DNA of 64,000 nucleotides from assembly GCF_026626335.1 (NCBI RefSeq), contig NZ_JAPNTZ010000028.1:1-64000 (forward strand), given 5' to 3'. Below are positions 31,851-59,366 of the stretch, one piece after another; within the stretch, counting starts at the first letter, position 1, and each line of letters starts with the position of its first letter. The translations under genes and the position numbers were made by a program. A model generated the notes under the pieces. That model did no database searches. It worked only from the letters and a program-made list of their open reading frames with translations, and was not told the DNA's origin. Origin of the DNA: Paractinoplanes pyxinae. GTDB taxonomy: Bacteria; Actinomycetota; Actinomycetes; Mycobacteriales; Micromonosporaceae.

Positions 31851-31975
31851 CTGCAGCTTCGCCTGACCGCTCACCGCTCCGGCTTGGGCCGCCCGCGTCT
31901 CTGCGGCTTCGCTCAATCGCTCGCCGCCCGAATCAGATTCGCCGCGGCTGTAGCGGCCGCCTAACCGCTCACCGC
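31851..31975. repeat. Three imperfect direct repeats (~50 bp) at the 3' end of the nitronate monooxygenase gene
   Basis: Copies begin at 31851 (CTGCAGCTTCGCC), 31901 (CTGCGGCTTCGC) and 31948 (CTGTAGCGGCCGCC), spaced 50 and 47 bases. Each is followed by a version of (C)GACCGCTCACCGC. The third copy contains the stop and last codons of the monooxygenase gene, so copies one and two look like duplicates of that gene's end. Confidence 0.65.
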
Positions 31976-32923
31976 GCGGGTCAAAGCCGCCTCTGCCTCG
32001 GCGGCGAGCGTCGTCACGAGTGTGGCTGCGGACGGCCGGTCGCGGATGAGGTCGACCGCCTCGCCGGCCCAGACCGGTTGTGGCGGTATGACGCCTCGGG
32101 CCAGGTCGTCGTCGTAGTCGGCGCGGGCCCGGGGATCGGTCGCGGCCTCGGACTCGCGCCCGCGCCAGCGGTCCAGATGGGGGTGGGCGAGAGTCCGGGC
32201 GGTGTACGCGGCCGGCCACCGCGAGCCGCGGACGACGTCCAGCAGGCTGCTGCGCTCGGTGTCCTCGGCCTGCCCGCCGACGATCGCGTCGACGATCGCC
32301 GGGTCGGCCAGCGATTCCGCCGCGGCCTGGAAGCGGGTGCCGATCAGAGCGCCGGCCGCCCCCAGCACCAACGCGGCGGCCACCCCACGCCCATCGGCAA
32401 TGCCACCGGCCGCCAGCACCGGCACGGACCCGGCCAGATCAACCACCACAGGCACGAACGGCAACGTGGACCGGCCCCGCCGCGCGCCGTGCCCACCGGC
32501 CTCGGTCCCCTGAGCCACGATCACATCGGCGCCCAGATCGACGGCCCGGCGCGCCTCCTCCAGATTCGTGACCTGCAAAATCACCGCCACCCCGGCCCGG
32601 CGGACAACTTCCACGTACAGACCCGGATCACCGAACGACAACATGACCGCCCGAGGCCGGTAGTCGAGCGCCCTCTCCACCGCGCTGCGGTCGACCGCCC
32701 ACGTCAGAAACCCGATCCCCCACGGCTCGTCGGTGCGAGCAGTCACGACAGCCACTTCACGGTCCAGCCATCCCGGATCGCCGTCCCCGGCCCCGAGCAA
32801 CCCAAGCCCACCACCGTTCGACACCGCCGCCGCCAGCGCACCCCCGGCGGTGCCACCCATCGGCGCCAGCACAATCGGATGCCGCACCCCGAACATCCGC
32901 GTGAACCCAGTGGACAGCGCCAT
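31961..32923 (-). CDS. Nitronate monooxygenase (2-nitropropane dioxygenase family)
   Basis: 320 residues, an FMN-dependent TIM barrel. H-P-I-V-L-A-P-M-G-G-T-A-G-G opens the barrel. I-V-A-Q-G-T-E-A-G-G-H-G and the phosphate-binding A-G-G-I-A-D-G-R-G, then G-T-R-F, are the class-I signatures. It oxidises alkyl nitronates such as propionate 3-nitronate to carbonyls and nitrite. Uniquely, both gene ends are copied in tandem arrays outside the gene: the first 21 codons in five degenerate units upstream, and the last codons in two units downstream. Confidence 0.9.
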   Translation of the reverse strand: MALSTGFTRMFGVRHPIVLAPMGGTAGGALAAAVSNGGGLGLLGAGDGDPGWLDREVAVVTARTDEPWGIGFLTWAVDRSAVERALDYRPRAVMLSFGDPGLYVEVVRRAGVAVILQVTNLEEARRAVDLGADVIVAQGTEAGGHGARRGRSTLPFVPVVVDLAGSVPVLAAGGIADGRGVAAALVLGAAGALIGTRFQAAAESLADPAIVDAIVGGQAEDTERSSLLDVVRGSRWPAAYTARTLAHPHLDRWRGRESEAATDPRARADYDDDLARGVIPPQPVWAGEAVDLIRDRPSAATLVTTLAAEAEAALTRAVSG

Positions 32924-33204
32924 GCCCCTTGTTTACCGCCCCCATCCTGAGCACACGTTGAGGAGCAGCCCAACCATCCACGGCAGTGCCACCACCGGCG
33001 CCAGCACAACCGGATGGCGCACCCCCAACATCCGCGAGAACCCAGTCGACAGCGCCACGCCCCCACCCTGAGCACACGTCGAGGAGCAGCCCGACCATCC
33101 ATGGCAGTGCCACCTCCGGCGCCAGCACAAACGGATACCGCACACCCCGAACAACTGCGTGAACCCGGTTAACAGCGCCACGCCCCCTGTCTACCGGCCC
33201 ACCC

Positions 33205-33315
33205 TCAGCACACGTTGAGAAGCAGCCCGACCATCCACGGCAGTGCCACCACCGGCGCCAGCACAAACGGATACCGCACCCCGAACAACTGCGTGAACCC
33301 GGTCAACAGCGCCAT
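33205..33315 (-). CDS. Repeat-encoded 36-residue hydrophobic mini-ORF, copy 1
   Basis: The ATG at 33315 follows AGGGGG directly, and the ORF ends in TGA 36 codons later. The product begins M-A-L-L-T-G-F-T-Q-L-F-G-V-R and ends with a hydrophobic P-W-M-V-G-L-L-L-N-V-C. The first 21 residues parallel the monooxygenase N terminus (13-14 identical positions); the rest does not. It could be translated as a leader peptide or be a by-product of repeat expansion. I cannot tell which. Confidence 0.3.
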   Translation of the reverse strand: MALLTGFTQLFGVRYPFVLAPVVALPWMVGLLLNVC

Positions 33316-33338
33316 GCCCCCTGTCTACCGGCCCACCC

Positions 33339-33449
33339 TCAGCACACGTTGAGAAGCAGCCCGACCATCCACGGCAGTGCCACCACCGGCGCCAGCACAA
33401 ACGGATACCGCACCCCGAACAACTGCGTGAACCCGGTCAACAGCGCCAC
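33339..33449 (-). CDS. Repeat-encoded 36-residue hydrophobic mini-ORF, copy 2
   Basis: This is the same 36-codon frame in the next unit, starting with GTG at 33449 after AGAAGG and ending in TGA. The protein matches copy 1 throughout apart from the start codon used, although flanking bases differ. That hints that the frame, not only the DNA, has been kept or recently copied. Confidence 0.28.
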   Translation of the reverse strand: MALLTGFTQLFGVRYPFVLAPVVALPWMVGLLLNVC

Positions 33450-33605
33450 GCCTTCTGTCTACCGCCCCCACCCTCAGCACACGGTGAGGAGCAGACCGAC
33501 CATCCACGGCAGTGCCACCACCGGCGCCAGCACAAACGGATACCGCACCCCGAACAACTGCGTGGACCTGGTCGACGGCGCGATGCGCCCTGTCCACCGC
33601 CTCTC

Positions 33606-34313
33606 ACCTGAGAACACGTTGCGAGGAGCCGTACATCTACCGCGTAGCGGGTCACCGAAGCTGAGCCGTGGCCGCCTCAATCAAGCCGCCCGCGTAGGAG
33701 GTGCCGGCGCACATCCACGGCGCCACGCCCTCGCCCGGTCAGTGCCATGGGCGGAGCCTGAGGCTCCCGAGCCCGCGGAATAGCGAGGTCAGGCTGACGT
33801 CGAACCAGCTCGGTCTACTTCGTCCAGGTTGCTGGTGCGGGACATCGTGAGGCGTTTGAGGTGTGTTCAGAGCTTGCCGTCAGCGTGGTCACATCGTCCG
33901 ACGCGTCCCTCGTTGGCCGCCCCGGCGGCTCCGCCTCGATGTTGGCCTGTCTCGCTGAGCTGTCGGCGAGGCGAACCCGTTCACGAACAACGTGACACTC
34001 ATGTTGATTGACTGGATGGCGTACATATTGACGTCAATATTGATTCAGTCAACACGAATCTGGGCCGACACTGCGGATCCGCTCGGCGCGGTCGTCGGCA
34101 CCTTCGTCGGTGCGGCAGTGGGCGCCACAGCCTTGCAGACTTGCCGGCTCGCGCACTCCGCGATCACCACGGTCCTGTGCCGCGGTCTTGGGCGCAACCA
34201 CTCACGCACGCCGCCGTGGTGGGGGGAGCGTTTTGGACGCGCCAGCGGCCAGCTCCCCCCGCCGCGGCCCTCGGCGGGAGCGACGGTCTGTAACCCACCA
34301 CCCCGCAACGACA
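33606..34313. other. Gene-poor region (~700 bp) with a perfect 16-bp palindrome
   Basis: No convincing gene is present. One open frame from a GTG at 33992 (start M-T-L-M-L-I-D-W-M-A-Y) runs on into antisense of the next gene and has no ribosome site or family. The segment 33980-34070 is markedly AT-rich for this genome. It centres on ATATTGACGTCAATAT (34025-34040), flanked by imperfect arms GTTGATTGACTG and CAGTCAAC. No integrase, tRNA or transposase accompanies it. Confidence 0.55.
34025..34040. repeat. Perfect 16-bp palindrome ATATTGACGTCAATAT
   Basis: The sequence equals its own reverse complement. Outer imperfect arms (GTTGATTGACTG at 34003-34014; CAGTCAAC at 34046-34053) extend the dyad with a 3-base bulge. 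It could be an operator for a dimeric regulator, a recombination site or a hairpin. No adjacent gene tells which. Confidence 0.6.
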
Positions 34314-35561
34314 TCAAGCATCTGATTTTCGGTGCATTTTGTAGTGCAGCACCAGGAACGGCATTCCATAGAGCGAGAACGCATGCTCGGCGCGCAATTC
34401 GCCGTCTTTTGTGTAGACGTCGAGTTGTTCGGAGAAGCCGTGCACGGCCAGCGTGGTCAGTTCGCGCGTTTCCGGATCGATGTAGGTCAAGTAATGGCCG
34501 GGATGCGGCAGATCGCTACGACTGGTCAGCACCAAACCGCCGCCGGGGCGAGGTTGCGGGATCAGCGTGGCGGTGAAACTGCCTTGCGGCACAGGAAATC
34601 CGACGCTCACATAGCCGCGGCTGTCGTGACGGTATGTCGTGTAGATGCCGACGTAAATCGGCTCGTCGGTGTCGGCGTAGGAGCGGATCCAGCCTCGCAC
34701 CCCGATCAGGTCGGTGCCGTCCGGGGTGATGGTGTCGATGCGACTTTGGACCCCACGTAATGTCTCGCGTTGATTCATCGGCACATTGGCCTGGCCCAGC
34801 GGGCGCGCCACAAAGGTGCGATAAAGCAGATAGCCGGGGCGCACCCACAGCCGCCATTCGGGTGTGATGTCGAGACCGAATCGGGTGGTGTGTTCGTAGA
34901 ATTCGCGGACCAGTGGATCGACCGCCGCGGGATCGAAATCGTCGCCGGCCAGGTCGTCCAGGGAGGCGACGATTCCCACGTCGGGGGTGTCGGCCAGATA
35001 TTTGCCGCCGATCACTTCGGCCAGTTCGCGCACATAGCCGGTTCCGACATATCCCGTACGGGCCTCGAGCGGAACGACGAACGGCAGGTCCTCAGCCGCC
35101 ACCCGCTCCGCCAGCAGGTCGACCTGCGGATCGCGGAACAGCGCCGCCGACACCGCCCGAAAACCGACCACCGCGCTCGCCGCCACCACGGCCGGGCGGG
35201 CATCGCGACGGAACGCCGCCCCGACGGCCGCCCCGACCACCGGGCCGAGCAGCACCTTCTGCGGACGCAGCCCGAGCGCGCCGGCCACGGCCCCGGCGGC
35301 CACACCGACCGTCAACGGACGGGCCCTCACCAGCCGGCCCCCGATCGCCGCCAGCGCCCCGCTCATCACGACCCGCGACCACCACGCCGGAATCTCGCCC
35401 GGTTTTTGCCCGGCCCGGGCGACCGCCTCGGTCACCGCGAGCGCCGCCGCCCCGACCGGAGCACCGCGGCGCCCGGCGATTGCGGCGCCGGCCAGCGCTC
35501 CCACCGCCGCGGCGAACCCGATGCCGCCGGCGCGCTTTCCCCACTCGTCCCGCCGCGTCAT
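34314..35561 (-). CDS. Conserved actinobacterial membrane-associated protein of unknown function
   Basis: 415 residues. The first 150 are Gly/Ala-rich with several short hydrophobic helices and glycine-zipper-like runs ([14 protein letters not shown]). The C-terminal 260 residues form a globular domain with conserved-looking motifs: [30 protein letters not shown] and [13 protein letters not shown]. Similar proteins of unknown role occur in mycobacteria and relatives, from memory. No enzyme motif is visible. Confidence 0.8.
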
Positions 35562-40370: not shown

Positions 40371-41729
40371 TCAGCCCAGAGAGCTGAGGCCGGCCAGAAT
40401 CAAGGCAGGCTCGGGGTGGGCGGCGCCGTCGGGCCGTACGTCGGCGAAGCGGACCACGCCCGAGCGGTCAGCGATGACGACAGCCGGGAACGGCAGCACC
40501 GAGCGGCCCGCGCCCAGCAGCTTGTCGGCGCCCGGGGCGTGGAAGCCCAGGTTGAACGCGTTGATCAGCTGGTTGCGGGGGTCGGCGGCCACGAAGTAGC
40601 TCAGGTCATGGCGGCGCTTGATGTCGACCAGACGGGCCGGAATCTGCGGGCTGATCGCGACCAGGTGGGCGTCCGTCCCGGCCAGGGCGGGCGCCAGCCG
40701 GTGTTCGTAGCCGGCGAGGGCGGCGTTGGCAGGCTCGCTCGACGCGTACGGGAAGAAGACCAGCACAATCGGCCCGGTCTGCCGCAGGCGGTCGAGGTGG
40801 ATGGGGCCGAGGTCAGCCTCGATCAACGACACGGAGGGCAACCGAGCGCCCGGCTTGACCATGCGGTCCCAGACGTCGTCCCGATCGAGCGCGTTCAACG
40901 GAAGACCGCGCGATTCCACCAGCCGGGAACCCGAGCCACGACCTCGTCCATCCGAACGAGATCCCCCGACGGCGCGCTCGGCCCGAACCGCCCAGGCGGG
41001 CGCGCCGACCGCGGCCAGCGATCCGGCCGGCCCGGCCGAAGCACCCGAAGCACCCCGCGCAGCCACGGCAGGCGAACCACCCAGCCCAGTCGAAGCACCC
41101 CGCGCGGCCACGGCAGGCGAACCACCCAGCCCGGTCGAGGCACCCCGCGCGGCCACGGCAGGCGAACTGCCCGGCCCAGTCGAAGCAGCCGAAGCGGCCC
41201 GCCCAGCCACGGCCGGCAAACCGGCCGACTCCGTCGAAGCATCCGAATCCGTCCGCGCAGCCACGGCCGGCGAACCGGCCAGCCCGGTCGAAGCACCCCG
41301 CGCGGCCACGGCCGGCGAACTGCCCGGCCTGTTCGCAGCAGCCGAAGCGGCCCGCGCAGCCACGGCCGACGAACCAGCCGACCCCGTCGAAGCATCCGAA
41401 CCCGTCCGCGCAGCCACGGCAGGCGAACCGCCCAGCCCGATCGAAGCGCCCGAAACGGCCCGCGCAGCCACAGCCAGCGAACCGGCCGGTCCGGTCGAAA
41501 CACCCGAACCCGTCCGCGTGGTCACGGCCGACGAACCGACCCGTGCACCCGCAGCGGCCGATCCCCCGCGCGCGGCGGAAGAGCCCGGACGCGGGGCCGC
41601 ATCCGGTGAGTCGGGCCGCCCGGTTGCCGCACCTGAGCGGGTCCGTGCCGGCAGGGGGCAGGCGGCGGCGTCCTCCAGTGCGAGATGCCGGGTGCCGGTT
41701 GGGTTGGCGCTGTTCGCGGCTGTGGTCAT
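40371..41729 (-). CDS. Peroxiredoxin-like protein lacking catalytic cysteines, with expanded repeat N terminus
   Basis: 452 residues from the ATG at 41729, which follows AGGAGG by 8 bases. Residues about 60-245 are an Ala/Gly/Ser repeat region built from variants of P-A-V-A-A-R-G-A-S-T-G-L-G-G-S. The C-terminal 180 residues are a thioredoxin-fold redoxin: I-V-L-V-F-F-P-Y-A, L-V-A-I-S-P-Q-I-P, and F-V-A-A-D-P-R-N-Q-L. Where peroxiredoxins have W-C-P-Y-C this protein reads A-S-S-E-P-A-N, so it has no peroxidatic or resolving Cys. A peroxidase role is therefore doubtful; a scaffold or binding role is possible. Confidence 0.75.
   Translation of the reverse strand: MTTAANSANPTGTRHLALEDAAACPLPARTRSGAATGRPDSPDAAPRPGSSAARGGSAAAGARVGSSAVTTRTGSGVSTGPAGSLAVAARAVSGASIGLGGSPAVAARTGSDASTGSAGSSAVAARAASAAANRPGSSPAVAARGASTGLAGSPAVAARTDSDASTESAGLPAVAGRAASAASTGPGSSPAVAARGASTGLGGSPAVAARGASTGLGGSPAVAARGASGASAGPAGSLAAVGAPAWAVRAERAVGGSRSDGRGRGSGSRLVESRGLPLNALDRDDVWDRMVKPGARLPSVSLIEADLGPIHLDRLRQTGPIVLVFFPYASSEPANAALAGYEHRLAPALAGTDAHLVAISPQIPARLVDIKRRHDLSYFVAADPRNQLINAFNLGFHAPGADKLLGAGRSVLPFPAVVIADRSGVVRFADVRPDGAAHPEPALILAGLSSLG
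41000..41540. repeat. In-frame degenerate repeats in the redoxin gene
   Basis: Variants of GCAGCCACGGC(A/C)GGCGAACC recur about a dozen times, at intervals of about 45-60 bases. All spacings preserve the minus-strand frame, giving P-A-V-A-A-R repeats. The opposite strand also stays open, a by-product of the composition. Confidence 0.7.
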
Positions 41730-43997: not shown

Positions 43998-44534
43998 TCA
44001 AGCCGGAGGTTGACCGCGGCGTCCGGGCGGAGGCAGATCATTCCGCGCGTGAGGTTGATCGGCGCTGGCCGGCCGCGTTTCGGGTCGCGGCGGAAAGTTC
44101 GAGCGGCGCCGCGGCGTGAACGGGTCGACCAGATCGGACGGTTCGTCCCGAGGCTGGGGCGGGCCGACTTCCGCCGGCCGCAAAGGAACCGCCGCCCCAC
44201 CGGCCGGCTTCGGCCGGTGGTCCGCCACAGGCCGCACCACCGCATCGGCGGAGGGCGGCTCTGGACGAACCGGGCGGACCTTCGGCATCCGCACGACCGC
44301 ATCGGCAGACGGAGGCACCGGACGAACCGGGCGGGCCTTCGGCATCCGCACCACCGCATCGGCAGACGGAGGCACCGGACGAACCGGGCGGGCCTTCGGC
44401 ATCCGCACCACCGCATCAGAAGACGGCGGCACCGGACTGGCCTTCGGCGCGCGCACCACCGCATCAGCGGACGCCGGCGCCGGCGGGGCCGGGCGAGCCT
44501 CGGAATCCCGCGATCGACGATCTTCGTGCCCCAT
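43998..44534 (-). CDS. Proline-rich protein with 19-residue tandem repeats, unknown function
   Basis: 178 residues from an ATG at 44534 without a clear ribosome site. About five units of P-P-S-A-D-A-V-V-R-M-P-K-A-R-P-V-R-P-V occupy residues 17-110. A Pro/Arg-rich tail includes D-E-P-S-D-L-V-D-P-F. There is no signal peptide or membrane helix, and no family. The consistent frame of the 57-base repeats and GC-biased third positions favour a real gene, but a non-coding repeat cannot be excluded. Confidence 0.45.
   Translation of the reverse strand: MGHEDRRSRDSEARPAPPAPASADAVVRAPKASPVPPSSDAVVRMPKARPVRPVPPSADAVVRMPKARPVRPVPPSADAVVRMPKVRPVRPEPPSADAVVRPVADHRPKPAGGAAVPLRPAEVGPPQPRDEPSDLVDPFTPRRRSNFPPRPETRPASADQPHARNDLPPPGRRGQPPA
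44228..44500. repeat. 57-bp tandem repeat, about 4-5 units
   Basis: The landmark (GCATC)CGCACCACCGCATC recurs at 44228, 44285, 44342 and 44399, exactly 57 bases apart, with a degenerate fifth unit after it. The units at 44285-44398 are almost identical. Fifty-seven bases is 19 codons, so the repeat preserves frame in the proline-rich gene. Confidence 0.8.
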
Positions 44535-59130: not shown

Positions 59131-59172
59131 CTCCATCGTCCACCATAGATCCGCATGAATCCCATGTCCACC

Positions 59173-59366
59173 GCCGCCTCGGCCGGCGCCGCCCGCGAAT
59201 CCCCGGCCCGCTGCACTCGGCACTCGGGGTTACCGCCGCCGCCCCGGCCGACGCCCGCCCGCGAATCCCGGCCCGCCGAACTCGGCACTCGGGGTCAACG
59301 CCGCCGCCTCGGCCGACGCCCGCCCGCGAATCCTCGGCCCGCCCAACTCGGCACTCGGGGTTACCG
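59173..59366. repeat. Three ~65-bp direct repeats in the leader of the emfourin-like gene
   Basis: The landmark GCCCGCGAAT recurs at 59191, 59257 and 59322 (periods 66 and 65), each followed by CTCGGCACTCGGGGT about 21 bases later. Each copy can fold, since CTCGGCACTCGGGG includes short complementary G/C runs. The repeats end 20 bases before the ribosome site GGGAGG of the next gene. Confidence 0.75.

Follow-up and report, generated by a model that had tools for sequence, protein, structure and literature searches.

The nitronate monooxygenase (NMO) gene of Paractinoplanes pyxinae is preceded on the minus strand by a tandem array of six head-to-tail units of 121–139 bases each, running from about position 33640 down to 32840 of the window (the whole 64,000-nucleotide stretch that was analysed), and the innermost of the six forms the gene's real 5′ end. 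Each unit consists of a leader of about 52 bases followed by NMO codons 1 to about 26. The array is thereby built out of the 5′ end of this gene and its leader, as the initial annotation of this DNA had described. On the sequence data, the array is probably a lineage-specific, nearly neutral tandem duplication ahead of an intact gene, in which one duplicate would have been expanded by slippage or unequal exchange.

The gene downstream of the array (31961–32923, minus strand) encodes a protein of 320 aa, which belongs to the PF03060 family with a match of 153.4 bits (E 1.3e-44) against a curated cut-off of 28. Over the whole gene, the changes assigned to its own branch (G000) numbered 10/7/35 at codon positions 1/2/3 and were rich in third positions; the NMO gene itself is intact and constrained.

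All six units lie on the minus strand and were delimited by alignment. Unit 1 (32840–32975) holds the leader and the true 5′ end of the gene, whose ATG begins at 32923. Unit 2 (32976–33096) lacks about 14 bases at the junction of leader and start, which leaves a GTG, and unit 3 (33097–33232) begins with GTG and carries a 2-base insertion, after which its shifted frame continues through unit 2; the joint frame of units 3 and 2 spans 32933–33181 and stops 9 bases ahead of the NMO ATG. Unit 4 (33233–33366), with an ATG start, and unit 5 (33367–33501), with a GTG start, contain 36-residue frames at 33205–33315 and 33339–33449, respectively. Unit 6 (33502–33640), the outermost and most diverged, has ATC at the site of the start codon, and an ATG or GTG start is kept in four of the five copies. 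A G-rich stretch stands immediately 5′ of the ATG or GTG in most units.

The repeat structure was recovered in several ways. The landmark GGCGCCAGCAC was located in all six units, at 32862, 32997, 33118, 33254, 33388 and 33523; this 11-mer by itself is unspecific, with 65 exact occurrences genome-wide. Tandem Repeats Finder reported a period of 134 with 4.2 copies at 33058–33621 (score 905), and alignment of the six unit slices (136, 121, 136, 134, 135 and 139 bases), as had been suggested, gave a mean column identity of 87%. Together with the genome search below, these results show similar units arranged head to tail, as in a VNTR. The outer limit of 33605 given at first is too short, and the array extends to about 33630–33640. 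Between the array and a dispersed repeat lies a spacer (33621–34184, no strand assigned), which overlaps the edge of unit 6 and has no further detectable unit; a search for decayed extra units in 33621–34180 found none above shuffled sequence, with 1787/2000 and 363/2000 shuffles reaching the score.

The outer units do carry NMO codons, as was first reported, but the homology continues to codon ~26 rather than ending at codon 21. Past codon ~26 the sequence of a unit runs directly into the leader of the next unit, which is open in frame and supplies the hydrophobic tail of the 36-residue frames. The tail is therefore not a separate element, as it had been taken to be, but the in-frame reading of the following leader.

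The array was restricted to a single locus in every search made. When one unit was used as query against the 10.18-Mb genome, six matches were obtained (E 2.5e-31 to 1.9e-64), all at the NMO locus, among the 40 of 64 first-look candidates that were scored; the strength of these matches is well outside chance. Dispersal of the unit across the genome, named initially as the finding that would overturn the idea, was accordingly not seen. A dispersed mobile repeat of the MIRU, REP or MITE kind was rejected on this result, within the same 40 of 64 candidates. In the genus, no such array appeared in 66 other genomes when eight candidates per genome were scored; 10 of the 67 genomes (own included) matched the array among the candidates scored, and outside the own genome each had one matching stretch of 24 to 89 bases, corresponding to the gene start or shorter. 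No such array appeared in the 299 other genomes of the family sample when two candidates per genome were scored, and 20 of 300 genomes (own included) matched, with a single match in each of the other 19 among the candidates scored. The first description of the unit as no dispersed repeat family therefore holds for the genome, genus and family among the candidates scored. Both the genus and family searches overlooked the NMO starts of at least two relatives, G041 and G052, which a unit profile detects, and an array elsewhere with equally diverged units could have escaped them.

The assembly is a draft of 45 contigs, and false duplication during assembly would produce a spurious array. Such a duplication would give identical copies, whereas any two units show 4 to 28 differences in alignment, and the array sits within a 73-kb contig; we regard an artefact as extremely improbable. 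The exact number of units could still be wrong, since units 3–5 are 93–97% alike.

The divergence among units tends to follow their order. Pairwise differences ranged from 3 to 21%, with identities of 97.0% for units 3 and 4, 94.8% for units 4 and 5, 90.1% for units 1 and 2 and 79.1% for units 1 and 6. Distance between units grew with their separation (r 0.66), a value reached by 10 of the 720 possible unit orders. There were exceptions to this rule: unit 6 is nearest to unit 4 (87.2%) rather than unit 5 (82.8%), and unit 2 is nearer to units 4 and 5 than to unit 3. Unit 6, which has only one neighbour for exchange, is the most diverged, at 79–87% identity to the others. Units 3 and 4 have the same leader sequence, and a single difference in 83 sites separates the coding parts of units 4 and 5, which indicates that the latest duplication copied the stretch from the unit-5 coding part through the unit-4 leader.

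Similarity that depends on order, together with a diverged outermost unit, is what local expansion through unequal exchange or slippage is expected to leave. According to the mechanism that we propose, a segment of about 134 bases, comprising the leader and NMO codons 1 to ~26, would have been duplicated once by recombination between sites sharing little sequence, and unequal exchange or slippage in replication among the copies would then have raised the number of units to six. The first junction joins codon ~26 to the leader and is too diverged for microhomology to be read exactly. The copies upstream of the intact gene would be essentially neutral debris, and the number of units would be expected to vary between strains.

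Each unit might instead be a small gene kept by selection and encoding a hydrophobic peptide, forming a tandem array of small proteins or leader peptides. The two 36-residue frames of units 4 and 5, the only copies that encode the complete peptide, are the same except for the start codon, as such selection would have it; recent duplication of these two units, however, explains the identity of their frames. The units do not all keep start and frame intact, as those of a functional small-ORF array would: unit 6 has lost its start codon and unit 3 is frameshifted. Across codons 1–21 of the six units, variable sites numbered 6/4/5 at codon positions 1/2/3, without the third-position excess seen on the whole-gene branch of NMO (Fisher p 0.034). 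In a like-for-like control, codons 1–21 of six orthologous gene starts gave 10/5/16 variable sites, and the contrast of the units with these starts did not reach significance (p 0.35, and 0.09 to 0.71 for single pairs), a result that leaves some room for peptide selection. The pN value exceeded pS in 11 of the 15 unit pairs, tied in one and was lower in three, these pairs not being independent of one another; the three lower pairs all involve close or adjacent units. That some copies have lost the start or the frame makes relaxed coding constraint likely, while the counts give no proof of it; taken together, the evidence suggests that the copies are free of coding constraint. Selection for a peptide in each unit is thus highly unlikely, and a reading of every outer unit as a maintained mini-gene is not supported, given the lost starts and frames and the even spread of variable sites.

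The array could also tune NMO expression, with the number of units setting output through the promoter or ribosome-binding site of the leaders or through mini-ORFs whose translation ends just ahead of the NMO start and re-initiates there. The G-rich stretch ahead of the start codons, the intact gene downstream and the short distance from the stop of the unit 3 and 2 frame to the NMO ATG, close enough for coupling to be possible, are compatible with such a role, and expression raised by tandem duplication is described for other bacteria (PMC11111574, PMC4432121). A scan of the array for sigma-70-like promoters, however, returned no site, in a test that is weak here since the scan is ill-suited to GC-rich actinobacteria. 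Nor were the leaders consistently better conserved than the coding part (identity higher in six of 15 pairs and lower in nine), and unit 2 is without ~14 of its leader bases. We consider tuning of expression unlikely. A more specific version, in which gain or loss of units acts as a slipping copy-number dial that alters the arrival of ribosomes or polymerase at the NMO start via mini-ORFs ending a few bases short of it, and in which such arrays recur at this locus in the clade, seems very unlikely. If unit number did affect NMO output, the gene would have a contingency-like dial formed out of its own start; nothing found requires it.

An array of structured RNA leaders was considered as a separate candidate and is unsupported. 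None of the six units folded more stably than its own shuffles (z 0.03 to 1.38), and at a threshold of E 1 the array matched no Rfam family; the one Rfam match listed (34211–34270) lies outside the array and far below its gathering score.

The locus was compared in 11 relatives around the 415-aa gene upstream of the array (34314–35561, minus strand), which has no Pfam match, is found in 25 of the 67 genus genomes (own included) and served as the synteny anchor. Among these relatives, NMO adjoins the 415-aa gene in G041 and G011, and it is broken in both. In G041 (locus L075), the gene is interrupted by a 16-base deletion near codon 34 and the flanking genes are kept. Changes on the branch of this broken gene numbered 16/9/29 at positions 1/2/3, and because they remain third-position-rich the break is probably recent. 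In G011 (locus L076), the protein match to NMO spans codons 1–67 and the DNA match stops near codon 93; neither the remainder of NMO nor the gene after it is present, and the flanking genes are otherwise kept. A third relative, G002, has neither NMO nor that next gene, and its 415-aa gene directly adjoins an acetyltransferase gene. Judged by the deletion, the truncation and the absence in these three genomes, NMO is unstable at this locus.

The proposal to count units in related genomes yielded no array in the relatives inspected: the gene start is single, or, in G011, accompanied by one decayed copy. That copy of the G011 gene start lies 77 bases upstream of the gene. The unit profile recovered it with E 6.1e-4 in one search and 2.9e-4 in another, and in alignments against plain shuffles its score was reached by 0 of 2000 shuffles for the consensus, unit 1 and the G011 gene start, and by 2 of 2000 for unit 4. 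The duplication may therefore be old and have been present already in the common ancestor with G011, a reading that concerns origin and is not exclusive with the others. It draws on recovery of the copy by both profile and alignment and on a TAT codon common to the copy and units 3–6. In contrast, the leader boundary and spacing of the copy differ from those of the array, a tree of 70 columns did not place it with the array units (support 32/19), and the unit profile found no clear upstream copy in G041, where the best extra match had E 8.4. An ancestral duplication is on balance rather doubtful, and copying of the gene start at this locus may have happened twice.

The lineage-specific duplication that we favour was also set against the background of this genome. 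In an 800-kb sample, made up of 400 kb from each of contigs 1 and 2, Tandem Repeats Finder at a period of at least 60 detected 11 tandem-array regions, eight outside and three inside frames passing a crude coding filter, so intergenic tandem arrays are ordinary in this genome. A survey of gene starts covered 1,468 of the 1,471 frames predicted in 2.06 Mb that included the window, and compared the opening 100 bases of each with 1.2 kb of upstream sequence; for both surveys, ORFs were called with a crude GC-by-position filter. NMO ranked first with a score of 62 and was the sole clear multiplied gene start in the 1,468 frames. The second (C12:127507–128016, score 51) holds a 54-base in-frame repeat, which may lie within a gene whose start is wrongly called, and the third scored 29; mismatched-pair controls reached at most 25 save one at 47. 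The initial claim that the array is neither a normal promoter nor a normal repeat family thus overstated how special it is as an intergenic array, yet the multiplication of a gene start does stand out. Such multiplication is rare in this sample, yet it fits a known process.

Two minor observations concern other tandem repeats. An 84-base repeat in two copies of 93% identity (L111; G000 contig 1, 115179–115353) ends at the start of a 429-aa frame and is possibly a smaller case of leader duplication. Within the window, Tandem Repeats Finder also reported arrays at 41012–41573 (periods 18–153), 44232–44487 (48–57) and 59171–59366 (65).

A literature search, judging by search summaries, found no description of a gene-start array. 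The NMO array resembles intergenic bacterial VNTRs and minisatellites in its head-to-tail units, tens to about 130 bases long, partly open in frame and situated beside a gene start. Mycobacterial MIRUs are dispersed across many loci, whereas the searches placed the NMO unit at a single locus, and its sequence derives from the start of the neighbouring gene itself. Partial (5′) gene duplications and pseudogene fragments likewise hold only the first codons of a gene, some with lost start or frame, but here five tandem copies are present, not one. Tandem duplication at little or short homology, followed by amplification between the copies, is the process described in PMC4432121 and PMC11111574. 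The array would share both steps with those cases, which differ from it in that whole genes were copied under selection for expression; here only the gene start is copied. With the intact gene innermost, the array offers a clean snapshot of a short tandem array growing out of single-copy sequence.

Two further repeated elements lie upstream of the array. A GC-rich structured repeat of about 123 bases (34185–34310, minus strand) is dispersed in at least 35 copies in the genome, among 40 of 150 candidates scored, and was matched in 59 of the 67 genus genomes; in G041, 13 bases separate the end of one copy from the NMO start. No Rfam family scored above its gathering score at this repeat. An alignment of 22 copies gave 35 predicted pairs, four of them with compensatory changes, and the covariation term was small (-0.42). 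Of 26 copies inspected, 18 had a frame, called with the same crude filter, at most 150 bases away and one was flagged inside a frame, and some copies are arranged as inverted pairs. The repeat can be described as REP- or MITE-like. At 33990–34055 on the minus strand stands a palindromic stretch of the TTGACTGAATCAATATTGACGTCAATATG type, which occurs in at least nine places in the genome, own included (nine of 152 candidates scored). A copy lies directly 5′ of one ORF in G011 and G041, which by eye we take to resemble citrate synthase, and the stretch is perhaps a regulator's operator and promoter.
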